Shown here: piece by piece, positions 7,928 through 30,056 of the stretch
Layout of the letters: each line of letters starts with the position of its first letter
Position numbering within the stretch: position 1 is the stretch's first letter
From: Bryoerythrophyllum caledonicum
Taxonomy: Eukaryota; Streptophyta; Bryopsida; Pottiales; Pottiaceae
Assembly (NCBI GenBank): GCA_963971425.1
Contig: OZ020515.1
Coordinates: forward strand, 5,534,291-5,598,290
Direction: 5' to 3'
Length of the DNA stretch: 64,000 nt
Position numbers and translations under genes: made by a program
The notes under the pieces: model-generated
Told to the model about the DNA's origin: nothing
The model's database searches: none
The model's input: only the letters and a program-made list of their open reading frames with translations

Positions 7928-7933
7928 AGGAAT

Positions 7934-7969
7934 GCTAGAATGTGAGCAGTGAGCAGTGAGCAGTGAGGA
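7934..7969 (+). repeat. left terminal inverted repeat: GCTAGAAT plus four heptads
   Basis: GCTAGAAT is followed by GTGAGCA three times and GTGAGGA once. The right end at 30007-30056, read on the minus strand, starts with the same GCTAGAAT and carries six heptads of the form RYGAGCN. Similar heptads form the ends of the nested element, so the 7-mer is the family's terminal signal. Confidence 0.8.
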
Positions 7970-8125
7970 ATCATTAGTTCAGTAACCTACTACCACGTAA
8001 TCTTGTAAATATGTTTTTTTCAAAGTGATTGAGAAACCTATGGCCGTCTCTAAAATAATGTTTTTAATTGGAATAATGGGGTGTATTGTCGTCATATACA
8101 TTTGTTTTTTGCAAAACTTTGGTGA

Positions 8126-8490
8126 CTAGAAACGGATGATTTTGTCAAATGGATGAATGTAAATGAATATTGATGAGAGTGGATGAATGATTCTATCCAT
8201 ATAATCAGGGTTTAGGATAATTACTTTCACAAAACGGATTTGAAATTGAAGGTTGCTCAAGTAACATTCAAAATGGGAGTGGAAAACATAAAACTTGGAA
8301 GGATAAATTAGGGACCTTGGTGCCAAGGTGCCCTTTGAGGCGGGCTGAAGTTCTTGCCATATACTGCGAAAGAAATCACTACTACTCACACCTTGCAAGT
8401 TCATCCACGAATTGCTAAAATGGTTTTAACAAAGGAAACACCTTAAATAAATAAATGCTTGAGCTCCGTTTAATTGCATCGAATGACATG
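8126..8490 (-). other. 3' flank of the methyltransferase-like gene
   Basis: An open minus frame (8126-8404) exists but has no homologue in the nested copy that I can see. It contains a palindrome (8311-8333) like those in the tandem array near the other end of the element. I read it as 3' untranslated or subterminal DNA. Confidence 0.3.
8311..8333. repeat. single GC-rich palindrome near the left end
   Basis: GGGACCTTGG followed by TGCCAAGGTGCCC is an imperfect palindrome centred on GGTGCC. It is nearly the same as the core repeated at 28.4-28.9 kb near the right end. So the two ends of the element share a palindrome as well as the terminal heptads. Confidence 0.65.
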
Positions 8491-8879
8491 TCAAGACTCT
8501 AGAGAGGTATTCCTACTTGTAATACAATCGGTTGAGGTTGAACTCTCACGGGCACTGTTACCGCTATCGCTTGTACTTGCCTCCTCTACCTCGAAGTCTA
8601 AGTACATCTTGACATTCTTGTTAAACCTTGGAGATTTAGGCTTACGCACAGGTGTTTCAAGGCATGCTAGTTCCCTAGCAACAGGCTCTATGTAACAAGG
8701 TAGGGATAATACCGAGCTTGGAGGAGACGGGAAGAAATTCAGTAACCTGCCACACAAGGAATCACACTATTAATTAGCTAAATAATATGGCAGAGTGCAT
8801 TGAAGTGAAATATACAAAGTGAAGGTAATTACTTTGCTACATTTGCATGTAAAGAATTTTGAAATAGGCTTAGACTTAC

Positions 8880-9440
8880 GTACACATCCTATTTTTGGGG
8901 ATTTTTTTTGTGGCCTCTTGTTAGGTATAACTGGAGAAGATTGGTGCTTCCTTTTACGCTGCATTGAATCTTCTGTTGTTGGGGCATTAAGGGGTTTTAG
9001 AAGCCCTTCATAAATTTCGACATCAGCCTCCAACGCTACAAGGTGGCGGCCAGTTCTTTGACATGCATAAATAGAAGCTCCTGCATGACAAAATCTCAGC
9101 ATTAGTGATCAAGAAGTAAGTAGAGTATGGAAAGAAAGTAGAACGTTAGGTCGGGAGTACCGGTGGATGCATTGCAATCAAGAACAACATCCCCAGGTTT
9201 GGAGAAGCTCTCAACGAGCATCTGAAGCAAGACCTGGCTTTTCTCCCGGGCTCCTCTCCAAAGCCTATCCTCAGTTTTCGAGGCCGTATTCTCGTCTATC
9301 AAATTGTGGAGGACTTCTTCATTGACGAGGTTTGTCTCAAGTGCACTAAGGGTCCGATTCTTATCAATGGAGAACTTGGAGTCCACCATGTTCTCTTTGA
9401 AAGACTCTTTGATGTAGAGGAGTATCAAGAACCGTTTTGT
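8880..9440 (-). CDS. exons 11-12 of the same gene: methyltransferase-like domain, motif I part
   Basis: Exon 11 (9440-9161) ends SKPGDVVLDCNASTG and joins in phase to exon 12 (9080-8880), GASIYACQRTGRHLVALEAD. Together this is the cofactor-binding end of an amino-methyltransferase: PGDxVLDxFxGxGT, then an AxxxGRxxxGIExD helix-strand. The usual FAGSGT is NASTGA. A basic stretch (KRKHQSS, KRPQKK) follows. The nested element has the same two exons, with the same intron position, at 24.6-24.85 kb. Confidence 0.72.
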
Positions 9441-9513
9441 CTAAAAAAAACCAACAGATTAAGATGTAAGGTAAGTAGGAAAACAATCGAGTGAATTCTG
9501 AAAGTTTCTAATA

Positions 9514-10520
9514 CAGAAGACCAGCATGACAAGAGGAAGGCGCCCAGCATCAAGACGTAGAATACCAGCAAGACTTTACCACTTAGAGAAGACCAGCATC
9601 ATCAAGACAAAGACGACCAACTTTATCAAGAAGACGACCAACATCAACAAGATGTAATTAACATGACACCACGAGCACCATGAACATGAAGATGAATACC
9701 ATGACATGACAAGCATGACAAGGGAAAGACGACCAGCATCACCATGAGGATCAAAGACAGAAAGAGAAGACCAGCATAACAAGAAGAAGACGACCTAAAC
9801 CTACACAGGGTGGAGATTACAAGTTAAAAAGATTGGCCCTGGAGGCACCTCGGCGCCGAGGCCCCAATTTTCCTTAGACTCTGAACTTGTTGTACTACTC
9901 CTAATGTAATTAACATGACACCACGAGCACCATGAGCACGAAGATGAACACCATGACATGACCAGCATGACAAGGGAAAGAGGACCAGCGTCATCATTAG
10001 GATCAAAGACAACAAGAGAAGACCAGCATGACATGAGGAAGACGACCTAAACCTACACAGGGTGGAGATTACAAGTTATAAAAAATGGTCCTGGAGGCAC
10101 CTCGGCGCCGAGGCCCCAATTTTCCTTACTCTAAACTTGTTGTACTACTCCAAATGTAATTAACATGAGACGAAGAGCACCCCGAACACGAAGATGAACA
10201 CGATGACATGACCAGCATGACAAGGGGAAGACGACCAGCATCACCATGAGGATCAAAGACAGCAAGAGAAGACCAGCATGACAAGAGGAAGACGACCTCA
10301 ACCTACACAGAGGGTGGAGATTACAAGTTAAAAAAAATGACCCTCGGAGGCACCAAGGCGAGACCATGAAGACAAGAGGAAGACGACCAGAATCATCAAC
10401 ACGCTCATGAACACCAAGCGAAAACCGGCATGACCAGAGAAAGACGACCAGGATCATCAACATTATGTGAAGTCGAGAAAGACTAGACCAGCAAGGAAAA
10501 TCGAACAACGTTAAAGGCAT
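9514..10520. repeat. satellite array inside intron 10, palindrome-cored units
   Basis: Imperfect units of about 200-250 bp repeat words such as GACCAGCATGACAAG, GAAGACGACC and CTCCAAATGTAATTAACATG. Each complete unit carries GGCACCTCGGCGCCGAGGCC, whose core CCTCGGCGCCGAGG is a perfect palindrome (near 9848 and 10098; a broken one near 10350). The array fills the intron that splits the methyltransferase-like domain. The minus-strand ORFs over it are repeat artefacts. Confidence 0.85.
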
Positions 10521-10604
10521 ATAACTAATGTGGAAAGTGAGTAATCAACATGGTAATCAGAAAAGGTGCGTATACAAAAAAATATAGCTAAGTGTGAAAC
10601 TTAC

Positions 10605-10949
10605 AGTGCTTTGATGTTTCTTTGCAGACGCAAGGGGCATCTTGTTTATCGCCCACCAATCTCGATAAGAGACAAAACCATACGCCTCCGCAAAGGCATC
10701 AGTAGATAGACGGACCGCTTGATCTGCGGGATGAAATAGGAGGATAGCACCATCATCTTGAAGAGACTCTCTTGCCAATTCAAAAATGCCTTCCGCCCAC
10801 TCATCGTCAGATTCATTCCAAGAAGGGATACCGCTGCCATGTAACAACTCTCGCACGGGGAGTCCGTCAGGCATATCAGCAATCATGAGGTCGATGTAAG
10901 CTTCCCTTCTGATGACACCGCCAAGACGTCTTTGAACTCCACGACCGGC
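10605..10949 (-). CDS. exon 10 of the same gene: methyltransferase-like domain, motif IV part
   Basis: A 115-codon exon bounded by CTATAG and GTAAGT, in phase. It reads AYIDLMIADMPDG, then WAEGIFELARESLQDDGAI and a strand LLFHPAD. This is the layout of motif IV and the next helix-strand in N4/N6 amino-methyltransferases (DPPY, then arrLkpgG), but the catalytic DPPY is replaced by DMPD. Motif I comes later, in exons 11-12, so the order is IV then I, as in beta-class enzymes. Confidence 0.65.
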
Positions 10950-11045
10950 CTATAGAAAACATAAAAATGGTGAGAGGACATTGAACAATCAGCAACAAAG
11001 AAACATAACGGTGATAATATATTTGAGGATGGGAAATATATTTAC

Positions 11046-11705
11046 CTTCTGTGCAAATGTCCGAAGTTCATGAAGTTCAGGAGGGAGTTGGTGATTGACC
11101 TCCATAAACTTGAGCATGGCAGGGATAGAGGTACAAATGGTCAACAACTCCGGCATAATGCCATGAGTGTTTGTTCTGAGATTCGTGACAGAAAATATCT
11201 CTGTAGACACAGACTAAATCTCCAGAGGGCAATATGAAAGATTACTGACTGTCATAGCCTCAGCACCACTCTGAAGGGGGGCCACAACAATCGGAGGAGA
11301 AGAGACGCCCTTACCTTTGTCTTTCGAACTGCTGCCGTCATTAGTCTTTGTGTCCTTAGTTTTTTTTGTTTCCTTGGTAGGCTTGGATGTTGGTGTCTTC
11401 GTCGTTTTCTTGTTGGCGCTGTCAAATAATACCAATAAAGGCTCTTCAGCCTCAGCAGCGTCAAGGCTTTCTTCATCAACCTCAGTAACATGACCTGTGT
11501 GCATGGCTTTCTCATCCTCCTCACTTACAGGGCAAAACTTCTTAGAACACTCAATGTACCATGGGCAAGATGCACGTTCTGCTAGAGAAAATGCACGTTC
11601 CTGGCCGGGAGTGAACATATACCCTTTCAAATTCTTCTCATGCCAAGCTCCAAACAACTTTGGCATTGACCGCTTATCAATGCCTTTCTTCTGAAGAAGC
11701 TCTTT
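11046..11705 (-). CDS. exon 9 of the same gene: conserved block plus Lys/Thr-rich linker
   Basis: A 220-codon exon between acceptor TTTTCAG and donor GTAAAT. It has a folded-looking first part (MPKLFGAW, CPWYIECSKKFCP), then a charged linker of KKTTKTPTSKPTKETKK type, then a helical end. An in-frame TAG at 11214-11216 interrupts it; the frame goes on after it to the donor, so it is probably a nonsense change from CAG. Confidence 0.65.
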
Positions 11706-11850
11706 CTGAAAATATCTATTATGATCACTATAGTGTTAGACCAACATTTACAGCTAATATACAAGACTATGTCAAGCAAATAATTGATTGGTAAGGATAA
11801 AATCTATACGGGAAAGCAGAATGTAGGATTAGTAATGAAGTACCGAATAC

Positions 11851-12997
11851 AAGTCGTTGCATTGCCTTGTGAGCTCCTTCTTGGCCCGAAAATGCTAAAA
11901 TCCTTGAATACCCCCCTTGGTTGCGAAAGAGGAAGTAATATGCATGGTCCCAGACTATAATGCGATGTTTCTCAATATAATCCTCAATATTGTCCAAGTC
12001 GTTTGCCTCCCAATTAATCGTGAGCTTCTCAGAAGCAATTGTATTGTTGACTGCTTCATTTGCAGCAAAATCCAACTACAATAACCAACAGCTAGAGTTA
12101 GAACCTTGAAGAAACAGTAATATGTCTTGTTCAATTGATGAAACATATGATAAGAAATAGAAAATAAGAAAGCATACAAGAAATTTAAAATCTAACGTGA
12201 ATATTTGAATGCAAATTACCTCAGCCCAAAATACCGCTTTGTGTAACCAAGAGTCAAGTTTCTCATCAGTAACACTAGGAGGTGGAAATTTCAATGCAGC
12301 TCTATTCATCTCGCTCGAGTTCCACCAGTCGAGCCAGTGAACCTTGTATTTTGGTTGGACAATTGACGCAGACATCTTCTGCAACTTCTCAAGAGACATT
12401 TTAGGCTTCTCCAGTTGACTGTAGTGAGTATTAATCTGTGAGCCTCCAAAATAATTAAGTCAATATGTTAACTAAATTAGATGCAAAAATGAATGAACTA
12501 TTGGGTCCACTTACGGCTTCAAGAAACATTGGACCGTTTGCTGGTCTGGCCACTGAAGTCATTTTATCAGATTCACTTCTATAAGATTTCACTTTTGCCA
12601 GAGATGCATCATTCATGGCCTTAGTGATACCGGCGGATGTTTGATTAGACTCCTCTGTGCGCTCCATATACAGACGTCCTACTTCGTCACTAGCAGCTGC
12701 AATCTCTTGCTGAAGTAGGTTGAGGTTAGAATAAAAATTTTAAAATGAAAGAAAACAAGTTCATTGATGATAGGGGGTTGAATTAAGAAATTGACAACAC
12801 TTACTCGATTGAGGAATCTGATAAAAACATCAGAGGTCAATGGATACCAGGCGTAGGGCCTAGGTCTATTCTCACATAATTTAAATTCTTCCTCAGTTAA
12901 CAAGTCCTTGAACTCAGTCAGATTGAACATCCCATAAGTCTTCACTCGGTGGAGTCTATGGACTAAGTTTGTTTTGACGTGGGCGTTTTCTCTGGAC
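11851..12997 (-). CDS. exons 5-8 of the same gene: middle region of unknown fold
   Basis: Four exons (12997-12805, 12709-12515, 12435-12220, 12075-11851) of 193, 195, 216 and 225 bp join in phase. They encode helical, Trp-rich protein (WLDWWN, YAWYPL, DHAYYFLF) with no cysteine cluster. I do not recognise a domain. All introns are short (about 95-145 bp), unlike the repeat-filled introns near either end of the gene. Confidence 0.7.
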
Positions 12998-13101
12998 CTA
13001 ATGAAGAAAAGCCAATATTGCAAATAAGTACATAATCATCACTGTAAAACAAATTAAGAGAACCTCAGCAATAGATTGAAAAATTCCAAAAAACAACTTA
13101 C

Positions 13102-13727
13102 TTTTTAATGTCATTCATGGCGTTGATGAGGACTCCAGTACTTCCGTCAGAAGATAGCAAAATAGAATCAACCGAGAAATGCCAATCAAAATCCTCACGA
13201 TGCAATCGAGATATATACCCTGTCCAAGCTTGGTGGCGATGATTCCCATCCCAAATGAAGAACATTTTCTCAGATAGATCTCCCCAATGCTTGTTACTTT
13301 TCAGCTCTTCCTCAAACGCATCATTTGCTAGAACCCAATGATGGTCCCAAGTACTCTTAATCTCATTAGAAACATGACGAGAAGTTCCTTTGTCATCTGT
13401 GATCGAAACGTAAAATACCCTATCACCTTCACGATATCCATGAACAAAATCTGACTCCAAATGCTTGATGTCTGACAACAGAAGAGGCCAAACTTTGGGT
13501 AAAGGTATCATGCGACAAAGAGGGATCTTCAGTCGAGATAAAGAGTGGGGCTTGAAACGAAGAAGTTGAATGATGGAATTAGAATCCAACCTCTCCTTCA
13601 ACTTAATGGCATCTTCGGCGCGGTCAATGGAGAGCTTATCATCAATAACGCGACCCTCCAACTCGTTGACAGTAGGCGAGGATGGCTTATCACCATCTAC
13701 AGGTTCATCCATATCCGGATCGCTTCT
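13102..13727 (-). CDS. exon 4 of the same gene: ParB/sulfiredoxin-like domain
   Basis: This 208-codon exon starts after acceptor TTGACAG and ends at donor GTAAGT in phase 2. An acidic Pro/Ser-rich part is followed by a domain whose end reads FFIWDGNHRHQAW. DGNHR with a following small or aromatic residue is the signature of the ParB-like nuclease/CTPase fold (DGxHRxxA), which in phages and plasmids is often fused to adenine or cytosine methylases. The upstream strands are diverged, so the call rests on this motif and on the linked methyltransferase. A structure search would decide it. Confidence 0.55.
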
Positions 13728-13769
13728 CTGTCAATTCAATGCATAAAATTCAAGACGCCAATGATATAT

Positions 13770-16260
13770 CAGCACCATCAACACATGGATGAACACCATA
13801 AGAAGACCAGCAGTTGAACACGAAGACCAGCAAGAGAAGACCATAACAATTCAGGCGACCAACACTTAAGAATGGGTGGACATAAAATGACATCACTATC
13901 ACCATGAACACAAGGATAATAACCAAGACAACCAACAGTCCAGCATGACAAGGAAAAGACGACCAACATCAGCAAAAGGATGAAAACCAGCGAGAGCAGT
14001 TCGCATGACAAGAGGAAGACGACCAGAATTTCCAATGCGAGGAAGACCAGCAAGACAAGATGAGCATGACACGAGGAAGACTTCTTGCGCCATACCACGA
14101 GCATGACCCGAGAATACAAGTAAACCTAAAGGCGCAAAGACTCACCACTCTCCGTGGGCCTTCACTCTTGCCTCCGTGTGAACTTGCAACCTAGAGCAGA
14201 GAAAAGTAACCATTAGAAACTCTACAATAGCACCATGAAAAGCAGGACCTTCAACACGATAAAGACATGAATGTGAAGACCAGCACGACTGCACGTTCAC
14301 AAGAGAACGACCAGTGGCACCAGCATGACGACACCATCATGTCAAAACGAGCATGATCGGAAAGCATGACAATGAAAAGAGCATGACATCACCAGCATGA
14401 CAACGGGAAGACGACTAGCATCATCATGAGCATCAAAGACAGCAAGAGAAGACCAGCATGACAAGAAGTCGACCAGCATCATAATGAGGATCAAAGTCAG
14501 CAAGAGAAGACCAGCATGACAAGAAGAAGACGACCTAAACCTACACACAGGTTGGAGACTACAAGTTAAAAAAATGGACCCTGGAGGCACCTCAGTGCCG
14601 AGGCCCCAATTTTCCATAGACTCTGAATTTGTTGTACTACTCCAAATGTAATTAACATGACACCACGAGCACCATGAGCACGAAGATGTTCACCATGACA
14701 TGACTAGCATGACAAGGAAAAGACGACCAACACCTTTAAAGATGGTGGAGACTACAAGTTTAAAAAAAGGACCCTGGAGGCACCTCGGTGCCAAGGCCCC
14801 TATTATCCTTAGACTCTAAACTTGTTGTACTACTCCAAATGTAATTAACATGAGACGAAGAGCACCATGAGCACGAAGATGAACACCATGACATGACCAG
14901 CATGACAAGGGGAAGATAACCAGCATCACCATGATGATCAAAGACAGCTAGAGAAGACCAGCATGACAAGAAGAAGACGACCTAAACCTACACACAGGTT
15001 GGAGATTACAAGTTAAAAAAATGGACCCTGGAGGCACCTCGGTGCCGAGGCGGTGAGGCCCCTATTTTCCATAGACTCTGAACTTCTTGTTCTACTCCAA
15101 ATGTAATTAACATGACACCACAAGCACCATGAGCACAAAGATGAACACCATGACATGACCAACATGACAAGGGAAAGACGACCAGCACCTTTAAAGATGG
15201 TGGAGACTACAAGTAAAAAAAATGGACCTTGGAGGCACCTATGTGCCGAGGCCCCTATTTTCCATAGACTCTGAACTTGTTGTACTACTCCAAATGTAAT
15301 TAACATGACACCACAAGCACCATGAGCACGAAGATGAATACCATGACATGACTAGCATGACAAGGGAAAGACGACCAACACCTTTAAAGATAGTGGAGAC
15401 TACAAGTTTAAAAAAATGGACCTTAGAGGCACCAATGTGCCGAGGCCCCTATTTTCCTTAGACTCTGAACTTGTTGTACTACTCCTAATGTAATTATCAT
15501 GACACCACGCGCACCATGAGCACGAAGATGAACACCATGACATGACCAGCATGTCAAGGGAAAGACGACCAGCATCATCATGAGCATGAAAGACAGCAAG
15601 AGAAGACCAGCATGACAAGAAGACGACCTAAACCTACAGAGGTTGGAGACTACAAGTTCAAAAAATTGGCCCTGGAGGCACCTTGGTGCGGAGGCCCCTA
15701 TTTTCCTAAGACTCTGAACTTGTTGTTCTACTCCAAATGCAATTAATATGAGACGAAGAGCACCATGAACACGAGGATAGTCACAATGAAGAGCGATATA
15801 TCAAGATAATGACAAACTGCTAGACAAGACCAGTCAAGCATGAGGAAGACGACTAGCATCACGAAAACAAGATTACATGATGCAGAAAAGGAGAAAAGTG
15901 GCACCTGGGTATCGACCGCACCACTCTCGCCTCCTTCTGGTCTTGCAACCTGTCAGAGAAGATCTCATCAGTACCTGAACACGAGTACTCAAAGACGAGG
16001 ATGACGAGCAACACCATCTCTTTCCAACAGCCCATCGATCACAAGTTAAAATAATGATGTAAGGATGTTCCTTGGTGCCGAGGCCCTAATCTGTTTTTAA
16101 TTGTGAATTGGCAGTACTCAAGGTCAAGAAAACTGTAGATAAAGATACGAGCACGATCCACACAAGGGACAAGGGGAAGACCGGACCTACGCTAGAGATG
16201 GAAGACTAGCATCATCAACACGGGGATAGAGAACTACAGAATATGACGAGGAAGACGACC
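13770..16260. repeat. larger satellite array of the same family in introns 1-3
   Basis: The same unit as at 9.5-10.5 kb, about ten copies, in varying truncation. Palindrome cores near 14584, 14776, 15031, 15233, 15426 and 15676 read GGCACCTCGGTGCCGAGGCC or close variants, followed by CCCTATTTTCC. Two small exons (14146-14190 and 15905-15949) sit inside the array. Unit similarity is higher within 14.5-15.7 kb than to the 9.5-kb array, which points to local amplification. Confidence 0.85.
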
Positions 16261-16521
16261 AGCACACAAACCGCGCAAGACGAGATGAAGAGAACAGTCC
16301 AAATCAACAAAACGAAGAAGAACGGCGAGAAGAGACCTCCATGACTCGACCTTCGCGCGGTAGGTGGGCAGCAAAAAATTTCGAGTACCGGCGAAGAAGA
16401 AGGTCGACCAAGGTGAGTGCGGGCAGATACCTTCCACCGTCTACAGAGGATGATAACTAGCCAGAGGACCAGGTGTAGGTTAGACACTGTAATAGGGTTT
16501 AGCAATTTCGGAACAAATTAC

Positions 16522-16957
16522 CTCCACAGCTGGTTCGAAAAGGTGGAGATTGAGAACTCCAGCTTCCCGCTCTGATTGTAATTTTTGAGATTCTAACACT
16601 ATCTGCAAAATTTCCCGATTACTCGATGTTTTCAGCAAATCGTCGCCTTCTCCATCGATCTCACATTGAGATAATAGAACCTCCCCTTCAGAAAACTATT
16701 TCGGTGAGTCTCTTCCACCACCCTCATATCCTAACTCATTCTCAACTCATGTGTCTTGAATAAGTGCCTCATCGAATGCAGCACTCAACGAAGTGCCCTT
16801 TGAATCCAACCTTCTAACCTTTGATTTCCTCGTCATCCTAGAATACTCTAGCTGTCTCGGTGTTGAGAATCTAAGCCCACGTTTCCTACGACTCTTCTTT
16901 GGCTCCTCCTACATCTCTTTCGATCTGAGACACTACATCCATGGCTCCAAAAAAACA
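16522..16957 (-). CDS. exon 1 of the ParB-like/methyltransferase gene: basic, NLS-like N-terminus
   Basis: The frame reads KKSRRKRGL, then FSTPRQLEYSRMTRKSKV, then an acidic helical part ending FEPAVE before donor GTAATT. The basic part suggests a nuclear signal and DNA contact. The nested copy has a clearly related exon at 21.4-21.7 kb (KKKKKRKRGL, then KQLRKARMARRKAQ). Three in-frame stops (TAG, TGA, TAG) break it; each fits a C-to-T change in CAG or CGA. The true start codon is not certain, because a TAG lies just upstream of the basic part. Confidence 0.6.
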
Positions 16958-17444
16958 CAGCCTTCACTATAATAGTTGTACATTTTGCAACCCTTCCAGT
17001 TCACTAACCCAGTCCACTAATTGGTTCTCCCATTCATGCTACACTTGTTCTCTATAATTCATGAATAGGCGTCCCCAATGTTTACAAAACATCAATGCAA
17101 GCCGCCATTTTAACCCTAGCTTACTCGGATTCCGCATCTCAAATTCCCATATTTATCAAATTAATAGACAAAATCCAAATATGTAACTGACAGCCGCCAA
17201 ATGAATGGCACGATTTACTTGCCTTCATTAAATTTCGACCATATCGTCAGACCGCCAAGAATCAGCCGCATTTCAAATCTTAGTTTGCCTATATTGCTTA
17301 AACGACCTAAACCTCACGGTTATGAGTTTTGTTAATATCTAATCAACCATGCTAGTCACTAGCCTTTCCTATTTAACTAAATCATTTGGTAGAAGATCTC
17401 AGTTACACTGTCTTTCCAAAGAACTTCTTGCTTCAAATCGCATC
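16958..17444. promoter_or_regulatory. divergent promoter region between the two transposon genes
   Basis: About 490 bp separate the first recognised codons of the minus-strand methyltransferase-like gene from the ATG of the plus-strand transposase. The stretch is AT/C-rich with no open frame. Both genes point outward, so they must start here and could share control. I see no certain TATA box or other site. Confidence 0.45.
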
Positions 17445-18898
17445 ATGGCAATGGCTAGCCTTCGTGGTCTAAATGGCACGTTACCCCTTTGTCTTCCACT
17501 CGATGCTGATGGAGTTGTCTAGGTCTTGGAGTCGATGGTCAGTCACCATTTCAATCTCGTTAGAGAGTCTGTCTAGATAGAACAAGAAGTTAATGATGCC
17601 AAGGGAATCCATGTTGTTGCAACTGTTTTACAAAGAAAACAGGTTAAGGATTCCGAGCTTACCTGGAGACTCCCGGTTGGGAAGTTTAGAGTGTTTGGTG
17701 ATCCCGTTCTGACCTCTCTCCGTACTCCTGAATCAGAAAAATCCACAATCAATTCTGTCTTCGCTTCTCATGTGAAGTTGGAGTCCTCCAATCCTGAAAC
17801 GGTCATTCTCAGTGAGTCTTCCAATGATGAGATCCTCCCTAGAGCACGACCTCAGTACTCCTTCCTCTCACCAATTATAGAAACAGTGCTAGAGATACCT
17901 GAAAGTGGTTCTCAGTCCATTTTGAGCCATCCTTCCCAGAATTCAAGATCTCCTCTACCGCCTAAAGTTGATACTTCCTCTATTTTAGACTGCCTCAAGC
18001 AATTACAAAGTAGGCCTAGGGAAAAGAATGATCTAAAGTTCCTAAATCTAGATACACTTTGTTACGAGAAGGTCAAGTATCTCCCAGAAAATTTCAATGG
18101 TGACGTCTTGTTTGAGTTCCCCCCGCTTAGTAGTTCTGCTTCTCCATCTATAGCTCGCCAAATGGAAGGCATAGACAAACGATACGATGGACATGTGTGG
18201 ACAAAAACTTTCACCATTAACATTGTCAATGATTTTGGTCTCACCTTCAGGTGTTCTAGCTGTGTTGGCCATCTCCAATGCATGAACAACGCTTGCCCTC
18301 GGATGCGACGGACTGGCTCCAGAAACGAAACGAAACGAAGTGGGAAGGAATTTCCCAACATGTCATTCCAATAGAAAACGAGGCACCTCCAAATTCTACG
18401 CTAGCATGCCGGATCTGTAAGTCCCATCCATCTTCTCTTGACACATGTCCTTGCCGGATGTATTATGTTGTCAATACGAATGGACTAGCTAGAGCATGTA
18501 TTCATGTGGGAACCCATCAACATCCGGGTGCTAAAGGCACATGCCGAGAATCTATTGAAAGAGCCACAGAGTTAGTAGGAAACGAAGTGCTTAGAACTCC
18601 TACGGCAAAGAATTCTGCCATTGCTCTAGCTGCTAGTAAAGAGTTTCTTTCGTCTGAAATCTTTGCACTTGACCGAGAGGGCACCCCAGAACCGCTCCGA
18701 GGTGACTCTCTTGACAAGGTTATAGAAAGGTTTAGGATACTCAGTTCACCTAATATCAGAAATGCTATCTCGACCATGCGACGGACTGCTAATGGAGGAC
18801 CTCCTGACAACATCATAAAGTTAAAGTTGAAAAGTCCGTACGCGTACATCCAAGATAGCGTCTTCCCAGGGCAAGGCAAGGAGACAACAACAAGACCG

Positions 18899-18939: not shown

Positions 18940-19056
18940 GATTAGATACCTAAAATTAGGATTTTTCAAAATTTGCACAATTTTTTTTAAAAATTTGGAT
19001 ACTGATCTGATAAGTTTTAGGATTTCTAGATGTCTAAATTTGGAATATTCTATGAA

Positions 19057-19175: not shown

Positions 19176-19476
19176 ACTAGTGCCAAACTTCTGTTTCTGA
19201 CGATTGTAAATATTAGCCTTTTTAGATCCTAAATTACTCTCTTGGGTTAAAAAAACCAGGGATTGGTCTAAAATTTGGAATAAATAAAGGAACAGAGCGA
19301 TTTGCATCATCACATTTGTGGAGTGGAATGAACACTGAATATGTAGCTTCATAATCCAAAAAACATACAAACAGTGATAGAAATTAGAATTAGAAAACAA
19401 CAGAACAATATTGCCTAGGCTTATAATACGTAGGTCTGTAGAAACTTAATGAGTAACTTATTATCTACCTTAAGTT

Positions 19477-20990
19477 TCAAACATGCTTATGGGAAAGAAT
19501 CGCTCGTACTACGAGCATGAGTTTGTTGAAGCTAAGTGTTGGAGCATGGACAAATAAGCCCTCCATCTCGTCAAGCTTGCACACGATTGCATAAACAAAG
19601 TATAGATGCTTGCAATTAACCCAAGACCAACCAGATCGGTTGGCCTTTGCCTGCATTGTAACAAAGTCCAAGCATGTGCAAGCCGGAAATGAACTAAGCG
19701 TAAGAATGTAGTGCTCCAAGGCATGGGTAGTTGAGGAGTTAACTTCCAAATCGACAATGCAGCCAAATCCTGAGAAGGGTACCATTGTGCGCTTCTAAAT
19801 TTTTGCCTTGAGAATGACGCCAGACCCCCATCACTGAAGTTGTGCAGCGGCTGGACCGGCGAAACGACGCTTCATCGTTTTAGTAAAGCGGGACGTAGGA
19901 TGTTTGTCAGCGTCCTCTGGGATTGGGTACGTAGCAAGGTCAATACCATCAATTATGGTTGCATGAAAGTGTCCGCGGGGAGACACTTCTCGTTCCTGAG
20001 GAAGTTGGAAACCGGCGCGCTCAAGGGCAATGATATCCGACCGCTTCAGGTTGGTGCCCCTTTTAATAGGTGAGATTTGGGGAATACTATCCGGGCAAGT
20101 AAGAACCTACTTTTTGGAAGAGCCCAACACACAACGATGAATGCCGTCAGGGCAGAAATAAAACTCATGTCGCTGGTTTCTACCAGTGTGGTAGTTCGTC
20201 CAAATCCCTCTACATGTGGGACATGCAGTGGCCTTATTCTTCTGTATGATCTTCATTGTGCACTGCTTCTTTGAGATGGCCTGGAGAGCCTAACACGCTA
20301 CACTGGTGCGATGTTTAGGTACTCGGGTGATATGCCATTCCGAAACATCACAATCAGATTCCTCTACCCCCGTAACATGTGTGGGTCGACTACCACGGAC
20401 ATGAAGGTTGTCCATAAGTTCTGGACCAAGAGAATCATCGCTGCCAATAACAAGGTCAATATCTACATCCCGGTCTCCATCCTCATCAACCTCTTCAAGG
20501 ACTTCACAAGTCTTTTGGGCCTTGGCCGACCTGGTATCCACTCGGGGACGGGAGAAATTCATCTTCTCTGGGCGGTGCGAGTCAAACTTTGATCCTAGGG
20601 GTAGATTAAGCTTGCGCTTGGTTGATCCAAAAACTTCTTCACCAGCGAAATGCGGAGGGCGTGTAAGGATGTTTGTTGAGTTTTGGAATTTCTCCATTGT
20701 TGCCTTAATTTTTATTTTGTTGTATTTTTTTGGGGTCTCTAGACTCTTGGACTCTCCTCAATCTCAGTTCGTTCTTACTTGGACCAGTTCCTCCACGTTC
20801 ACTCTTCAGGAACAAAATATAGTGAGTAACCTGCATGAATGCCCTGACATAATCAACCAAAGTTGCCTAAAAGAGGTCGTTGCCCTTGTTCCCGGACGCT
20901 TGGAGCCACTTGTTGTGCATTGTCTCTGCAAGGTTGCACCTTGGCATGCTTGCCCGCTCGTCGTCTGGAAGATTCTAGAAACATGAATCG
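19477..20990 (-). pseudogene. C-terminal half of a second MULE transposase
   Basis: Minus-strand blocks match the outer transposase in the same order: CNLAETMHNKWLQ (about 20.94 kb), EEVFGSTKRKLNLP (about 20.64 kb), a linker, a Cys block CPTC...FYFC (about 20.2-20.1 kb) and a SWIM finger CTC...NCKHLYFVY near 19.63 kb. Frames change between blocks and stops occur, so it is dead. The N-terminal and catalytic parts are absent: the plus-strand gene of the same element begins at 21.4 kb, so an internal deletion removed them. Confidence 0.8.
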
Positions 20991-22649
20991 ATTACACAAA
21001 CATCCAATCAAGAAAAGTTTTATCCCGGAATGTACTTAAAGTGAATTAAGAAACAAGGTAATGTAAGGGGCTCACCAAGGTCATAGCTCCACCCCACTGA
21101 AGGTCATATCCTCTTAATGGTCATTCAAATTGGCGGTGTATGACAATATCCAATCTACAACAACAATTTTATGGCGTCCCATATCCCATTATTATTGTGT
21201 GAGGCATGTTTTGACAATTGTGCTTATATGGGCTTTGAGTTACTGTCTTCTATAAATTTACAAACTTTTAGTGGATATGCTTTGATTAGAAAGAAAACAA
21301 CACTTAATGGATACCATCAACCAATATTCAATTAGTCTTAGTGGATGGGATACCTTTGCAGTCATTGAATTAGATCATTCTATTGTCTTGTGGAATTCTC
21401 GCTGAGTAAATTAGATATATTGCAGATGCTCAAAGAAGTTGTCGCCTCCACAAGTGCTCATTTAGTTGAGGAAAAAAAGAAGAAGAAGAGGAAACGCGGA
21501 CTCTTCTTCTCAAGTAGCAAGCAGTTGAGGAAGGCAAGGATGGCAAGACGTAAGGCTCAGATTGTAGAGGATGATTTAGGAGATACTCCGTGTGTCCTAT
21601 CCTTTGAAATCGGTGCAAGTTTAAGTTTGCCAAATAAGGAGAGGTTGGTGGATTGCCAACAATTCAAATGGACAATGACATGCAAGACGAGGAGGATGAC
21701 GAGGGCAATCATCACTGTGGGCATTTGGTATGTGATCTCAATAATACTTCAATATTTTTTATTTGATAGACGTCATTTCAACATGTTGTTGGTCAAAAAC
21801 GACATCATATCTTGTTAAAATACGACATTTTTCATATAGAATATTGTAGCTGACAATTGCACCTTTTGACATTGAAGGGTTATAGAATGATAAGGCCCAT
21901 ATATTCATTTTATAGTTCATTGAACTATCAACAACAATTTGATGACTAAATGATATTCTAATGCGTTACACAGGTAAAACCAAAGCAATTGATATGATTT
22001 AACGATCATATGCTTGTAATTTCTATTTGACTATCACCAATGTGTACAATTATACCGGAACGAGGATCTAAATGTGCAACTGAAATGTACCAGTAACGAG
22101 GATCTAAATGAGTTAATCACGACATCTATATGGATAAGATGAAGACTGTACGGTACATCTACATCGATGTGATTTTGATCTGAATCAAGATGTGCAACTT
22201 AATTTGATACTTTTGAAAATTTGCAAATATGAAGATTTGAAATCCTAAATCCCTCCCATTTTCATTGGATCTTGAGCTTAGTTTAGTCTCTTTCACATAT
22301 GAGAATTGCTATGCAGGAGGAGCAGCCATCGATTGCGTGTCGTGAGGAAGAGATTTACGACGGAGATTGTGACGACATGAACTTGAGCGCGTTGAATGAC
22401 GAGGAGGACGGAGGCAAACATGATGCTGAGGACGACACTCAAGCTCCCGACTCGACAGCTGCAGGTGAGTATCCCAAGATCTCTCCATTCTGACTTTGTC
22501 ACAGGTGAGCTTAACCCCTGAGAACCCTAGCGTCGGAAGCAACCTTTGTCTGTCCCTGCCGAACCTCTAGTTTCTGCGATAGACGCCAGGGATCACGAGT
22601 CGGAGTATACATTTAGGGTTTGAAGAAACAAAACTCGCAATAGTCTAGA

Positions 22650-23080
22650 CAAAGCTGTGCCGGCAAGGGTTACGAGCGCGAGTGAATGGTGTGCGGAAAC
22701 TGGCCGTGTAGGGGGCTGCCGGTGCTGGCGAGGGTCTTGACCACGTAATTCTTGGTTTGTTGAAACTGGCCGTGGATGGGCCGCCGGTGCCGGCGAGGGT
22801 CTCAACCTTCACGGAATGATATGCAAAATGCGCAGAGGAGGGGGTCGCCGGTGCCGGCCAGGGTCTCAACCTACATAGTATGATGTGCAAAATTTCCATT
22901 GGAAGGGGTCGCCGGTGCCGGCCAGGGTCTCAACCTACTCAGAATGATGTGTAGGTTTTGTAGTGGAGGGGGTCGTCAGTGCCGGCAAGGGTCTCACCGA
23001 TAAAGAATGATGTACAAAATTTGTAGTCGAAGGGGTCGCCGGTGCCGACCAGGGTCTCAATCATACAGAATAGCAGACAT
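22650..23080. repeat. about 64-bp tandem array with core GCCGGTGCCGGC, 7 units
   Basis: Units start GGGTCGCCGGTGCCGGC followed by CAGGGTCTCAACC, at about 22651, 22712, 22778, 22842, 22907, 22970 and 23034. The core is a palindrome with arms GCCGG/CCGGC around TG. The array lies in an intron of the second methyltransferase-like copy, in the same relative place as the outer copy's satellite, but its sequence is different. Confidence 0.85.
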
Positions 23081-23329
23081 TGCGGCCCGGGGACTGGTGC
23101 GCGCGTACCAAAATGAGAGTATCAAGCAGGTAATTAAGTCTAGATGGACAAGAGAGGTCCTGAAATCACCGAGTACATCTCAGATTTTGGTCTTTTGCAG
23201 GTTTTTTGGTAACGACTTCAACTGTGATGTTATCAATGGTGGCATACAATGGTACAAAGGCCTGAGTTAAGGGAGGCTTGTGGTGCGCATCCTTCTCTTA
23301 ACAGCGTGGTACTTCTGGTATGAGGATGG

Positions 23330-23830
23330 TGAAGCACGCTCTTGAGAATTTGATGCCATTTCTAAAATGGTATGGCACATCAGAAATGGAGCTCGGATGA
23401 AAGAGTTGTGTCTGAATGAAGTTTCGTGTAAGCACTTTCAAAGGGCAGCCGGAGCCGGCGGGGGTCTAGAACATGTTCTTGAGAGTTTGATGCCATTTCT
23501 AAAATGATATGGCACATTAAAAATGGAGCTCGGATGAGAGAGTTGTGTATGAATGAAGTTTTGTGTAAGCACTCCCAAAGGGGTCGCCGGTGCCGGCGGG
23601 GGCCTAGAGCACGCTCTTGAGAATTTGATGCCATTTCTAAAATGGTATGGCACATTAAAAATGGAGCTTGGATGAGAGAGTTGTGTGTGAATGAAGTTTT
23701 GTATAAGCACTTCCAAAGGGCAGCCGGTGCCGGCGGGGGTCTAAAACACGCTCTTGAGAATTTGATGCCATTTCTAAAATGGTGTAGCACATTAGAAATG
23801 AAGTTAAGACGAGAAAGTTATGCATGAATG
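23330..23830. repeat. about 136-bp tandem array with the same palindrome core, 4 units
   Basis: Units begin CACGCTCTTGAGAATTTGATG at about 23336, 23471 (CATGTTC), 23611 and 23747, so the period is 135-140 bp. Each carries CAGCCGGTGCCGGCGGGGG or a close form. Degenerate copies run on to about 24.3 kb, partly with the palindrome lost (for example near 24035). The core links this array to the 64-bp one, although the rest of the unit differs. Confidence 0.85.
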
Positions 23831-25791
23831 AAGTTCTTTCTTGACATACTTCATCCGCGCATAAAACACTGCTCCAAGCTCAATGTTTGACATTCCATAC
23901 CATTTTAGAAAGCTCTTCATAAGCTCTATAGCATGGTTGAATTTAAATAGACTTATCATTCACTACCAAGGGGTTGTCATTTATCACTCCCCTTTTAAAT
24001 GTGCCTTGGAGTTTCTTGTAGGCACTCCCAAAGGGCTGCCGGTGCCAAAAGACCCCTAGAGCAAGCTTTTTATACTTTTATTCCATTTCTAAAATGATAT
24101 GGCCCATAAGAAATGGAGCTTGGATGAGAAAGTTATGCATAAATATAGTTTCTTGTTGACATGCTTCATCCGCGCATAAAATAGTGTTCCAAGCTCAATT
24201 TTTAACGTGCCACACTGTATAAGAAAGTGCGTCACAAACTCTATAGCGGGATTTAATAAGAATTGACTTACCAATCACTACCATCGGGGTGTTGTTAATG
24301 GCACCTCTTTTGAAATGCGATGGAGTTTCTTATGAGAATAACGAGGTGCCTGAAATGACTCAGGAGAAACTATGGATGTTTTCTACCTCGGTGATGGAGT
24401 CTCATATCAAGAAAAAGTTTCTTGAATGATGGAACTCACCCCCTTCTCTTTGTATTCAATTGAAATTTCCTTATCTATTCATGTTGATCCGGAACTAGCC
24501 AAGGTTGGGATTAATCTAAAAGAAGACGACATTTTGTTCAACCATATATCATTTGAGTCTCAAGCCATGAACGGTACAGTACCATGGAAAGAAACTCGTG
24601 AAAAGGATGAAGGGTTTATGTAGATGTTTGTTGAAGCCTTCACAAATCCAGGCTCAGTTATTTGGATGCCACTACTGGTACAGGTCCAACTCTCACTTGC
24701 TATAATTGACATTTTTCTAAACTAATTCGGAGTTTAATTTTTTCTGAATCTTGCCATGTTTTGACTGGGTTCAGGAGCTACTATTCAAGTAGGAAGCAAG
24801 CTACATCGGCATGTTATTGGCTTTGAATCTGATCCACTTAATTTTTTAGCCCTTCTTAGTCATCTTTGACAAGTGTCACCAAGTTCATCAATTCCACCTA
24901 AATCGATTGATGCCTTTGATGAAGATGAGGTTCCGATTCGCCGCGTGGCAAAAAAGAACCGTTTAAGTAAGTAAGTTCATAATTTCAGTGTTTTTGCCGT
25001 CTTGATATTTCAATTCTTTTACAAAGTATAATTACTTAACTATTTAGTTGTTTGGCAGATTGATGGACTCCGCCTATTCTCCACCAAAGTAATTTACGCT
25101 TCCATCTGCAGAGACTATTGCTCGTGTCAATGCTTCATTGCATTCTCCGCCATTCGTTCATAGACATCGTAGTTTCAACCGTGACGTTTATCAATTTCTG
25201 GGTGTTGAGGCACTAGAAGGTAGTGAAAGTTATTCTACATAGATTTTCTATTATTTTTGTGGTCATTTATGCAGCCTTAGTTTGTTAGTACTGTTCTACT
25301 ATCTTATTCATATATTTCGTACTTTGTTCTTTGGCATCATACACGGTATTGTGATTCCCAAGCCACTATTGCTCTATGGCAAATGATACAATTCACACGT
25401 TTAACTTTCATAAAATCTTGTTTAGAGGCAATTTTTTAAAAATTTGTTTTGTATGTGATACCACATACAGAGGATGGAGTTGTAAGAAGAAATTAAATGC
25501 AAAGAACTAAAAAACAACATCAATTGACACAACTAGAACATAAATATTTACATTCTTGTCCACCTATAGTATAGGATGGTGATGCCTAACAACAGAAGCA
25601 TGGGATGGTGGAGAAGACCCCAATCAATATCAGTTTGAAAGACTTTTATTATCTCCTACACATAAATGCCGGTAATAGCGGCCCTATTATAGTTTCCATC
25701 TTCAAAACATATAAATATGCAGATGTTCTATATCATTTAAGAAGGCATTGCTAATAATGAACTTCCTCACCATCTCACAATTTTGAATTTT

Positions 25792-25955
25792 TCCACGGTA
25801 ATGGGCATCTCTTATCACTTTTGTTATTGTACTTAACTACCTTCAGCTTTTCAATTGCATTTGTACGACATTAATTCCACGGCAATAGGATATATACTTC
25901 AACTAACAATATCTATTTTTCTTGTATATTGTAAATTTCCTACCACGGTTATAGG
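25792..25955. promoter_or_regulatory. subterminal motif TCCACGGTWATAGG, three copies
   Basis: TCCACGGTAATGG (25792), TCCACGGCAATAGG (25876) and ACCACGGTTATAGG (25942) lie 150-310 bp inside the right end of the nested element. They are the reverse complement of the two copies near its left end, so the motif points the same way relative to each end. Confidence 0.5.
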
Positions 25956-26061
25956 ATCACGAGACAAAAATTTGTTATTGTACTTAAGAAAGATCCACGA
26001 CTTTCCGTCCTCAAAGTTAACAAAACCAAAAAAAAACTAAAAAAATAGAAGGAACTTTTCT

Positions 26062-26105
26062 GCTCACCGCTCACCGCTCACGCCGACGCTCACCGACCGC
26101 TCACA
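26062..26105 (-). repeat. right inverted repeat of the nested element
   Basis: On the minus strand this reads TGTGAGCGGTCGGTGAGCGT and continues with three further heptads (GTGAGCG, GTGAGCG, GTGAGCA). The outer transposase frame resumes directly after it. Confidence 0.8.
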
Positions 26106-28381
26106 TGGTCAAGTTCTTGGGCAAGGAGAAGGTGTACCTGTTCAAGATATCTGAAGAAGGACCGGGCAGTGGTGTCGACCTCGTCAAACGTATGCAACCC
26201 GGAGGACACCTTCAGAACTCCTGGATCATGTTTGATCACGTCAAGCGTGTCAAGGGCTGGACCACAATTGCCTGCCACGTTTACGACACCAAATATTGTT
26301 GCGTGATGACCATTGCCGTCTGTGACATGCATAGCAAAGACGCTGAATTGCAGAAACAGATGTGGATGTCCATGAACAGCGTCGTGGCACGTCACGGCAT
26401 CCTAAAACCTAACTTCAAAGGATTCATGGCGGACAGCGCCCAGGCAAACTGGAATGTTGTTTGCATTGTTTATGGAACCGGTGACCCCAGCGTGAAGATG
26501 GCTGACAAAGAGAGGTCTTGTCTACTTCATTGCGTTACGTCCCTGAATAGACACACAAATAAATTTATCCGGCCTGAATTCTGAAATCAGCATGTTAGAC
26601 TTTGTAGACAATACAAAGATGCCAAGACATCTGAAGAGGCAGAAGAATTGTACCTTGGCATCAAAGGTTGGTGGTTGTCATCTCGTGCAGCTTCTGAAGA
26701 AATGATAAGGGAACTCGATGATTGGCTCAGTTTCTCGCACTTCCGCTATCGCCAATGGGGTGGCTTCATGAACATGGTACACTTCTAAATCCCAAACCCT
26801 AAATTTTACTTGTCGATTTTTGAGATCATAGCCCTATCTGCCGTTTAGGTTTGCTTGAGAATCCGTAAATCCTAACCTCAAACCCTATTACATGAACTAT
26901 AGAAACTGGATATGGAGCAGTTGGCAGAAATGCCGTCTTGCAACATTGCGGAAACCGTGCACAACAAGTGGCTACAGATGTCCGGCAACAGGAGCACTTG
27001 CCTGTACGTTGCCACAACCGACGACATGATGCGAGCAATGATGCAGTCCACGAACTATTGGGCCTTCTTACAGGGTCACGCTTTCGGCACTGGGCCCCAC
27101 CTTGATGAGCTCCGGCTACAAGCTGCGAGACGATCAAATGACCCGGTCAAAATTGCTACAGCTATCAGCAAGCTCCCCGGGGCGGAGATGTTCACCACCA
27201 GAGTTTCCCACCTCGAAGGTGAAGAGGTTTTTGGTTCAAGTAAGCGGAAGCTTGATCTTCCACCTGGTTCTGAAGAGGACTCCCATCGTCACGACAAAGT
27301 CAATTTCTCCCACCTCCGTGTTCAGACCCGTTCAACACGAGCCCGCACTGAAGCTGGAACATCAACTGTCGAGAGTACTCCCACTGAAGATAGGCCATCC
27401 AATTTTCTTCATGCCACCTCAGTCTTGGAGAGCGAATGCAATCCAAAGCAATGGCACATAGCACGTTGCAGGAAGGTCGGCAAGAAATGCCACGGCATTC
27501 AATCAAGGCACAAGAAGTGTGTGGCTCTTGTCGTCAAAGATAAGAAGAAGGGTACTCCAGCACCAACTTACATCGGCCGCATGACCAAGTATGGGACAAG
27601 GGCCATGATAAATTTCGACTTTTGGTTCTGTGTTGATGACATTACGAGATGCGTTTACGGCAGCAAGTGTAGCTGGATTTGGGATTGGCCCCCACTTCCA
27701 TCTGTTTGGCCCGTTGCCCGGGGCACTAATCTCACGAAGGGTGAGATATTATTACTGGAAGAGGTCGGCTTTCAACTATAGACGAAGGATTTTGACATGT
27801 CACCTCGACGTCTCTTCCAAGCCTCTCCCACAGCAGCGGTTATAGATATTATCAGTCCAAGTCCCTCCAATGGTGGAGCCCATCCTACCAAGCGATATGG
27901 GAGGACTATCAAGCGGTACGAAGGGGCTCCAACTGTAGACCATGGTAACAAGTGGGAATCAGCCCAAAACGTTAAGGGCACTGTGAAGAATGTGATGCCA
28001 ATTCCATATCCCGGATATGGAACAGTCATTGCGCTCCAATCAGGTATTGTTCCGGACGACAAGACATATCTGATTTCTCTTTCCGACTTTCCCTCCTGCA
28101 CGTGTGATTATTTTGTTAGCATGAGCAGTGGTGTACTTGGCAAGCGCAAAGCATGGACAAACTGCAAGCATTTGTATTATGTGTATCGATACCTTTGCAT
28201 GGCAAACTGTGTAGACGACAAGTTCATACACGCTCCAAATCTCAGCTTCGATGAAATACAGTTGTTGCTTCGCAATAGCAATCTCTAAGATTGTAGGCTC
28301 ACAGTAGTACGGACATATTACTTCATTGTTTCTAATATATGTTTAGGATTTTACATTTTCTGTTTGGGATATCTTTTGTCC

Positions 28382-28925
28382 AAGGTTGGAATGACTTATT
28401 GGCAGTAAAGAAATGCATTTACAAGAACGAACAGAGCTCCATATCTGAACTTTGGCGCCAAGGTGCCCATAATCTCTCAATTGCTATCTTGTAAAGTTCA
28501 CAACTTTTTTTTTTTTTCAAAGGTTGGAATGACTGATTGGCAGTCAAGAAACGCAACTACAAGAACGAACAGTGCTCCATATGGGCACTTTGGCGCCAAG
28601 GTGCCCATAATCTCTCAATTGCTATCTTATAAAGTTCACAACTTTTTTTTTTTTCGAAGGTTGGAATGACTGATTGGCAGTCAAGAAACGCAAATACCAC
28701 CACGATCAGCGCTCCATATGGGCACTTTGGCGCCAAGGTGCCCATAATCTCTCAATTGCTATCTTGTAAAGTTCACTATTTTTATTTTTTTTTAAGGTTG
28801 GAATGACTGATTGGCAGTCAAGAAACGCAAATACCACCACGATCAGCGCTCCATATGGGCACTTTGGCGCCAAGGTGCCCATAATCTCTCAATTGCTATC
28901 TTGTAAAGTTTACTTTCTTTTGGGC
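28382..28925. repeat. 137-bp tandem array near the right end, 4 units, palindrome-cored
   Basis: Units start AAGGTTGGAATGACT at 28382, 28520, 28657 and 28794 (periods 138, 137 and 137). Each carries a long T-run and the core ACTTTGGCGCCAAGGTGCCC, the right part of an imperfect 24-bp palindrome starting with GGGC and centred on GGCGCC. Units 2 to 4 are nearly identical, so amplification is recent. The array lies just downstream of the transposase stop codon. Confidence 0.9.
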
Positions 28926-29232
28926 AAAGTGAGTATCGTATACCACTAATTCGTATTGTGATACAATACAAGTATTGTACCTATGTATGTTCTAATGGTA
29001 GGCAATAAACCATAATGGTTGTTTTAGCAACATCCTTTGTCTTCTGTATATGTCTATCCACTTTTTACTTGAACATGCATTGAGGCCATTTTAGCATGCA
29101 GATATGGTACATTCACACTTTGTCTTGGGATTCCATTTTATTTAGAATCATGGATGAATAATCGTTTTGTTTAGTCATTTTCTAACCTACGTGAATGAGG
29201 TGATTCTGAATTCTGCTTCCTTGCAATTGTAG

Positions 29233-29580
29233 ATGGCATACCCCCCAACTAAATACGACATTGAGAGCTACTTGGTGGATGCCCGATCATATGGTGTTGC
29301 CCCAGAACTGTCAGGCCATGTTGCGAAGTTATCCAAGAGATTCAAGACTCTAGTGAAGTATAATCAAGATGGGACTGTTCGTTGGACTTATGGCACACGC
29401 AAAGCTTATAAAGGCATTGCATACTTCATTGGCTTCAAGTGGAGTCCAGACTCCACTTTCATAGATTGTAGTGGTACATATTATTGGCGTCTTTGCAAGA
29501 TGTCGGATGTGGAGTTGGCGATTTTGTTCACGATGAGGCTGGCATCACTACACTGTAGGTGGTGTTATCTAAAGTACTAA
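29233..29580 (+). CDS. unknown 115-residue ORF near the right end of the large element
   Basis: Open frame starting ATGGCATAC directly after a good acceptor-like GCAATTGTAG, so it may be an exon rather than a whole gene. It reads like folded protein, with motifs RSYGVAPELSGHV, LSKRFKTL, RWTYGTRKAYKG and FIGFKWSP. It has no stops, unlike the transposase upstream. I do not recognise it. It lies inside the large element between the tandem array and the right end; the nested copy has no room for a counterpart. It could be a downstream exon of the transposase transcript or a third gene. Confidence 0.5.
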   Translation: MAYPPTKYDIESYLVDARSYGVAPELSGHVAKLSKRFKTLVKYNQDGTVRWTYGTRKAYKGIAYFIGFKWSPDSTFIDCSGTYYWRLCKMSDVELAILFTMRLASLHCRWCYLKY

Positions 29581-29910
29581 CTATTTTAAATGTCGTTGCT
29601 ACAATATACAATTGTGTACTTCATCATCATATTAAAAAAATTGAGTGAATTTGATAGGGTCCATTTGAATGATGCACGTCCGTGCACCCTGTTCAATCCT
29701 AAACTTGTTCATCCACGAAATTTGTTCATCTATCACTCTATACATCCATAAAAAAATTCATCCATTATAATCACCTATTTCTAAATTGGAGAGAGCAGTT
29801 TCAGCAATAAAGAAGGTGCAAAATCTAAACCTTATATTTGAGCAATGACCGGAAGTTCATTCCAGTAGGAGGCCATGTACAACTTTAATGTCATTGAAGA
29901 CATTTTGAAG

Positions 29911-29924
29911 TCCACGGTTATAGG
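29911..29924. promoter_or_regulatory. subterminal motif TCCACGGTTATAGG at the right end of the large element
   Basis: Same word as near the ends of the nested element, about 135 bp inside the right border. At the left border only a weak match, ACCACGTAATC (7992), is present. Confidence 0.45.
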
Positions 29925-30006
29925 TTTAAAAAGTTACTATTAATAGTTTAAAAGGCATATTATTTAGGGAATATACTCAGAATCAGCATATTCTGTACTA
30001 AAAAAA

Positions 30007-30056
30007 GGCTCACTGCTCATGGCTCATTGCTCACCGCTCACCGCTCGCATTCTAGC
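30007..30056 (-). repeat. right terminal inverted repeat of the large element: six heptads plus GCTAGAAT
   Basis: Read on the minus strand: GCTAGAAT, then GCGAGCG, GTGAGCG, GTGAGCA, ATGAGCC, ATGAGCA and GTGAGCC. It mirrors the left end at 7934-7969. The target duplication follows at 30057. Confidence 0.8.

Follow-up and report, generated by a model that had tools for sequence, protein, structure and literature searches.

A Mutator-like transposon carrying a ParB-like/methyltransferase-like gene opposite its transposase in the moss Bryoerythrophyllum caledonicum

A 64,000-bp stretch of the Bryoerythrophyllum caledonicum genome (contig OZ020515.1, positions 5,534,291 to 5,598,290; hereafter the window, to whose numbering the coordinates refer) contains a 22,137-bp transposon of the Mutator-like element (MULE) type. 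It carries two divergent genes, one for a transposase and one for a protein with a ParB-like region and a methyltransferase-like domain. We tentatively favour the reading that this is a large land-plant transposon of the MULE/IS256 type, whose divergent ParB-like/methyltransferase-like accessory protein acts on the element's own arrays in the manner of VANC. The present copy is defective, with a dead transposase gene and a second gene that is probably broken. Statements on published work refer to excerpts of the cited papers.

An insertion with two divergent genes

The outer element (7927..30063) is flanked by a perfect 10-bp target-site duplication (TSD), GTGTTGAAGC, at 7917..7926 and 30064..30073. 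Its inverted ends contain GTGAGC-type heptads. The left terminal inverted repeat (7927..7967, plus strand) bears GTGAGCA heptads, which form a tandem array at 7942-7967, and is identical to the right one (30007..30063, minus strand) at 27 of 34 positions. When the element and one copy of the duplication were removed, the flanks formed a single open frame across the joint (ending in NEEYAKERFNTKDAKNGYALQECLDSRVK and a stop codon), which indicates that the insertion had split an outside open reading frame. An earlier, sequence-only reading of the window had described an insertion that is bounded by inverted ends, interrupts an outside frame and holds two genes in divergent orientation, and was right in these respects. 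Its borders (7928..30056, with an empty site joining 7927 to 30057) had to be moved to 7927-30063, the joint being 7926 to 30074.

That reading had also described an 18-bp direct repeat. The repeat does contain the true 10-bp TSD, but as a whole it matches at 17 of 18 positions, and its extra 8 bp, matching at 7 of 8, are on the right side part of the terminal repeat. The 18-bp duplication was rejected in favour of 10 bp because the spacing CA-N15-GAGC[AG]G is then the same at all four ends of the outer element and of a nested inner element. A scan of both strands of the 64 kb located this pattern at exactly these four ends and nowhere else. The partial match of 7909-7916 to 30056-30063, the last 8 bp at the outer edge of the right terminal repeat, may reflect chance or a target preference. 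TSDs of MULEs range from 8 to 11 bp (table in PMC6446971), and both elements have a perfect one of 10 bp as well as terminal inverted repeats.

The transposase gene is on the plus strand and comprises an N-terminal part (17451..18884), a catalytic DDE/RNase H part (26120..26776) and a C-terminal exon with a SWIM-like CxC...CxH motif (26903..28288). A GCM-type zinc domain and a SWIM finger are common in MULEs. The fold of the catalytic part, taken from a structural model of the relative P0026, is predicted to be that of an IS256-related DDE transposase. The gene is interrupted by the inner element (18885-26119). Comparison by eye with P0026 and P0001 further revealed in-frame stops at 17520, 17574, 26582 (26582-26584) and 27779 (27779-27781) and a frame change near 18.3 kb; P0026 is in one frame throughout the N-terminal part. 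Because of the inner insertion, the stops and the frame change, the gene is not intact and, judged by these lesions, is dead. The MULE transposase with a SWIM finger described earlier has a predicted IS256-type DDE fold and a SWIM-like motif, in a broken gene. The transposase alignment comprised 44 of 120 listed relatives, picked by length (544-855 aa) and coverage, and not all of that size.

A search of genome contigs with the transposase found one relative, L004, a 4.1-kb contig in a Synechococcales (cyanobacterial) bin. It encodes a stop-free, two-exon relative of the outer transposase with an intron at the same position, and is probably eukaryotic (plant) contamination of a bacterial genome record. 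In the 3' flank of its transposase (L004:3533-4101), repeated TGATACC-like words were seen by eye and could represent the motif of another family of elements.

The accessory gene

The second gene (8491..13712, minus strand), opposite to the transposase gene, was modelled with 11 exons and 1070 codons, instead of the 13 exons counted earlier. Each modelled exon has one frame free of internal stops, with 1-26 stops in the other two. Exon 1 (13102..13712) encodes the ParB-like region with a DGNHR motif. Its junction with exon 2 is confirmed by the relative P0122, whose frame runs on through an intron of its own and into the same exon 2. Exon 8 (10605..10949) encodes the first half of the amino-methyltransferase domain, exon 9 (9161..9440) the second half, and exon 10 (8833..9080) the end of the domain and a basic tail; the splice junction of exon 11 (8491..8766) is uncertain. 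All of these exons are on the minus strand, as is a doubtful 36-nt 'intron' (11214..11249). This stretch probably holds a nonsense codon within a single exon rather than being an intron, since it is too short, a multiple of three and ends in an in-frame TAG. Our initial assumption of an intact gene was withdrawn since a 36-nt intron would be too short and is in phase. The gene is nearly open, and the present copy may be broken as well.

The METHYLTRANSFERASE domain matched PF01555 (N6_N4_Mtase) at residues 737-921 with 35 bits (cut-off 26.7). The second-gene product also matched the phage family PHROG 498 (E 1.2e-6) and CcrM (E 1.5e-4), and a Thermus phage methylase aligned to residues 711-927 (E 8e-7). 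In an alignment to three phage methylases, chosen from 20 listed among at least 200 records with a match, motif IV precedes motif I. This is the order of the beta class of N6/N4 amino-methyltransferases. The catalytic [DNS]PP[YFW] of that class is replaced by ADMPDG, so that catalysis by the domain is doubtful, although the Asp of motif IV is kept and some activity may persist. The three phage relatives have DPDY, DLPY and DPPY at this position, and six phage ParB-methylase fusions all have DPPY and a Gly-rich motif I. Motif I of the moss protein, VLDCNASTG, is without the FxGxG pattern. The split amino-methyltransferase fold proposed from the sequence alone is supported as a domain but has an altered catalytic motif, and an active methyltransferase, our first-choice reading at one stage, was lowered in rank because of this motif.

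These motifs bear on the possibility that the protein is a self-marking enzyme, which would bind the element and deposit N6-methyladenine (6mA) or N4-methylcytosine (4mC) on it, with a protective or activating effect, in line with a proposal made for algal relatives. The methyltransferase domain is present over its whole length, and the authors of PMC12477816 propose that the algal protein binds and epigenetically modifies its own transposon. Not only do the altered motifs IV and I speak against this, but activity of a rotifer N4C-methyltransferase was lost when the Ser and Tyr of its SPPY motif were replaced (PMC8885841). We consider self-marking rather unlikely. The excerpt of a 6mA survey (PMC12695648) deals with MT-A70 enzymes and contains nothing on the ParB-methyltransferase type.

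With exon 1 as the query, 13 relatives were found among 99 candidates. They are 43-67% conserved and keep DGNHR, which is present in 11 of the 12 alignment sequences that reach the motif. A search for relatives of the long protein yielded none of 7988 scored candidates at E<=0.001, probably because each relative in the database covers a single exon. Exon 1 gave two chance matches only among solved structures and no relative among genome contigs. Viral contigs contained no confirmed relative of the transposase or the second gene, and none was found there with a phage ParB query. The DGNHR motif, called ParB-like in the earlier reading, is conserved, but a ParB fold of the N-terminal region is only suggested, the Pfam and profile comparisons being negative.

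A nested element with remnants of both genes

The inner element (18885..26119; 7,235 bp) is decayed. It is flanked by a perfect 10-bp TSD, GGCAAGGAGA, at 18875..18884 and 26120..26129, and its 34-nt ends are identical at 28 of 34 positions. A C-terminal exon of its transposase remains at 19486..21007 on the minus strand (tblastn with P0023, E 5e-154; P0058, 7e-95; P0013, 2e-79). On the plus strand, tblastn with the outer second-gene product detected a decayed remnant of the methyltransferase-like gene in shifting frames (24459..25236). Matches were found at 24274-24471 (residues 318-384, E 0.007), 24459-24866 (residues 822-927, E 1.3e-4) and 25048-25236 (residues 983-1047, E 0.03, a weak match to exon 11), and their order is collinear with the outer product. 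None of 60 shuffled queries reached the 37.4 bits of the second-gene match, the best scoring 28.5. An intron lies at the same place within motif I in both copies.

The outer and inner elements appear to share the head-to-head layout of the two genes, in opposite orientation. The pairing of transposase and second gene is probably a feature of the lineage, since a related nested element contains remnants of the same pair; the basis for this linkage is one element and remnants in another, both within one window. Given its nested position and perfect duplication, the inner element inserted later than the outer one and was probably moved in trans.

The second gene might instead be a captured passenger, a Pack-MULE-like cargo with no role in the element. 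MULEs do capture genes (PMC6446971), and both the probable nonsense codon and the altered catalytic motif would fit such a cargo. Three observations argue in the other direction: a second, diverged element has remnants of the same pair, the ParB-like exon is conserved in its 13 relatives, and genes of this type are on record from algal transposons of other superfamilies (PMC12477816). We regard capture as unlikely. Even less probable, and very unlikely in our judgement, is the possibility that the element by chance enclosed a separate host gene or some third mobile unit. There is a precedent in rotifers, where a prokaryotic-type methyltransferase has been reported as a host gene (PMC8885841), but in the inner element the remnants of the pair are enclosed by the ends and TSD of that element.

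Palindromes and a possible mode of action

The outer element contains the palindrome pattern CCTTGGYGCCAAGG (up to 2 mismatches) at 12 places with 21 strand matches, against 0.55 expected and a largest value of 4 in shuffled sequence. All of these places in the window are within the outer element; 11 are in non-coding sequence, and the twelfth, at 26653, falls in the transposase sequence. A left subterminal palindrome, CCTTGGTGCCAAGG, is located at 8315..8328. Two more (9848 and 10100) are in a 252-bp tandem array in intron 8 (9652..10354), four (14783, 15037, 15681 and 16070) in tandem arrays upstream of the second gene, between both genes (14391..16083), and four in a 137-bp tandem array 3' of the transposase (28374..28910). 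The left and right subterminal sites agree by 86% over 22 bp, as opposed to 28% in their flanks.

The inner element has its own pattern, GCCGGYGCCGGC (up to 1 mismatch), with 8 places and 14 strand matches (0.03 expected), all in its arrays of 64-bp and 137-bp units (22718..23734), where GCCGGTGCCGGC palindromes occur at 8 places. The two arrays (22778-23835) are distinct and bear the same GCCGGTGCCGGC palindrome. CCTTGGYGCCAAGG and GCCGGYGCCGGC have the core GGYGCC in common.

By analogy with VANC, we infer that the second protein may bind the palindromes of the element. In the favoured reading, the transposase would recognise the heptad ends, and the accessory protein the palindromes, which each element has amplified into tandem arrays located within an intron, in the space between both genes and close to the ends. 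Loaded at these arrays, the accessory protein would keep the element accessible to transcription and to the transposase, comparable to VANC on VANDAL elements. The methyltransferase-like domain might provide an added DNA contact or sense a cofactor, instead of or besides methylating.

A rather improbable extension is that the element represents a land-plant MULE lineage with parS-like self-recognition, in which a ParB-type clamp, fused to a catalytically altered amino-methyltransferase, would load at the arrayed palindromes and provide anti-silencing that evolved independently of VANC. The palindrome would then diverge together with the protein, being CCTTGGYGCCAAGG in the outer element and GCCGGYGCCGGC in the inner one, and the anti-silencing system would have been built from prokaryotic partition and modification parts.

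The distribution of the palindromes, near both ends and centrally, could also suit a transposition helper that nicks or bridges element DNA and gathers arrays and ends for synapsis, as a ParB-type clamp or nickase. A ParB-methylase fusion of Bacillus cereus has been reported as a DNA nickase (PMC5512222). The ends, however, are already equipped with heptads, and the palindromes closest to them lie 0.4 kb inward at one end and 1.2 kb at the other. We find this role improbable. The sequence-only reading had offered three roles for the gene as a cargo, namely marking element DNA, countering host silencing and gathering the ends. It was partly supported: the anti-silencing role of the favoured reading is tentatively preferred, marking has a small chance and gathering a slight one.

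Weaknesses of the favoured reading

Several results weigh against the favoured reading. For the transposase, no member of the family matched a Pfam MULE model, and 1 of 44 relatives reached the Pfam model Transposase_mut, at E 0.034 and below the cut-off. For the second gene, two NCBIfam methyltransferase models were matched far short of the required score, one at 21 bits instead of 244 and the other at 18.5 instead of 830, and the copy is probably interrupted by a nonsense codon at 11214-11249. Pfam ParB models matched none of 14 members of the ParB-like family at E<=1. HHalign comparison of this family with 10 phage ParB domains, including nine of 40 listed from 137 records, gave a probability of 0.1% and did not rise above chance: for the whole domain, 28 of 40 shuffles scored as high, and for a trimmed domain 39 of 40 did. 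The structural model of the ParB-like region had a mean predicted local distance difference test score (pLDDT) of 54, and the fold hits listed for it were all of low probability. In the inner element, the second-gene copy is a weak match only, and no ParB-like exon was found there with 133 database proteins as queries.

The palindromes have weaknesses of their own. The patterns were picked after the repeats had been seen, and the counts are not independent since units of one array copy one another. Site pairs other than the subterminal one agree by 59-77% over 22 bp. In eight aligned units of an outer array, conservation is 0.914 in the palindrome columns and about as high (0.906) in the remaining ones, and the palindrome has been lost from some of these units. 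The 0.6 kb downstream of the transposase in L004 contain no palindrome of the element's kind.

Flanking genes

Outside the element, a resistance-type gene is located at 32123-37501 on the minus strand. Its NB-ARC and Roq1-type winged-helix domains, which point to a land plant, occupy 36311-37501. Its leucine-rich repeat (LRR) frame of 1317 aa (32123-36076, minus strand) contains many near-identical repeats of about 23-24 aa. A 1091-aa open frame on the plus strand (32610-35885), antisense to the LRR array, is probably a by-product of the repeats.

Relation to known elements

Accessory genes of the ParB-methyltransferase type have been reported in transposons of brown, green and red algae (PMC12477816). 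The algal protein, with 1104 aa, a ParB-like region and an N4/N6 methyltransferase domain, is of the same two-domain type as the moss protein. It accompanies a Sola1 transposase in a brown alga, whereas the transposase here is MULE/IS256-like and in a land plant. The layout of two domains in a gene opposite the transposase was seen in one element, the ParB fold being only suggested, and the algal members were compared by description.

VANDAL21 of Arabidopsis is likewise a MULE with an extra gene, VANC, and with short motifs that have accumulated in tandem within its introns and upstream sequence; VANC binding lowers methylation of VANDAL21 (PMC5735166). Compared by description, the moss protein differs in its ParB-like and methyltransferase-like domains and the moss motifs in being palindromic, and binding and hypomethylation have been demonstrated for VANC alone. 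Second genes are also present in the MULEs MuDR (mudrB) and Mutyl (mutB), compared by description from a text in which the word 'methyltransferase' does not occur (PMC6446971). Retrotransposons of dinoflagellates and charophytes encode DNA methyltransferases too, but of the C5-cytosine type (PMC5890265).

That ParB-methylase fusions are known from phages, as the earlier reading had stated, was confirmed by N6_N4 fusions described in PMC12704722, whose text contains neither 'plant' nor 'transpos', and by the phage fusions compared here. Like the moss protein, these have an N-terminal ParB-type region and a C-terminal methyltransferase (by annotation, with DPPY); one was assigned ParB_N and Methyltransf_23 by Pfam. 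Seven such fusions are 405-444 aa long, whereas the moss protein has 1070 aa, is encoded in multiple exons and has an altered catalytic motif and a ParB-like region that has diverged beyond significant similarity. In the open literature searched, mostly at listing level, we found no MULE and no land plant with a ParB-methyltransferase gene. The gene type was already reported in algal transposons, so that the element extends a class that has hardly been studied and does not establish a new one.

Silencing of transposons in plants relies on DNA methylation. To our knowledge, the escape from it is understood in molecular detail for few systems, such as VANC. If the favoured reading is true, ParB-like and methyltransferase-like parts would form a second class of element-encoded, sequence-specific proteins, spread over several superfamilies, MULE and Sola among them, in hosts that range from algae to land plants. 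The protein and its palindrome arrays would form a pair that can be tested in vitro, and the class would represent a widespread, barely studied tool for countering silencing.

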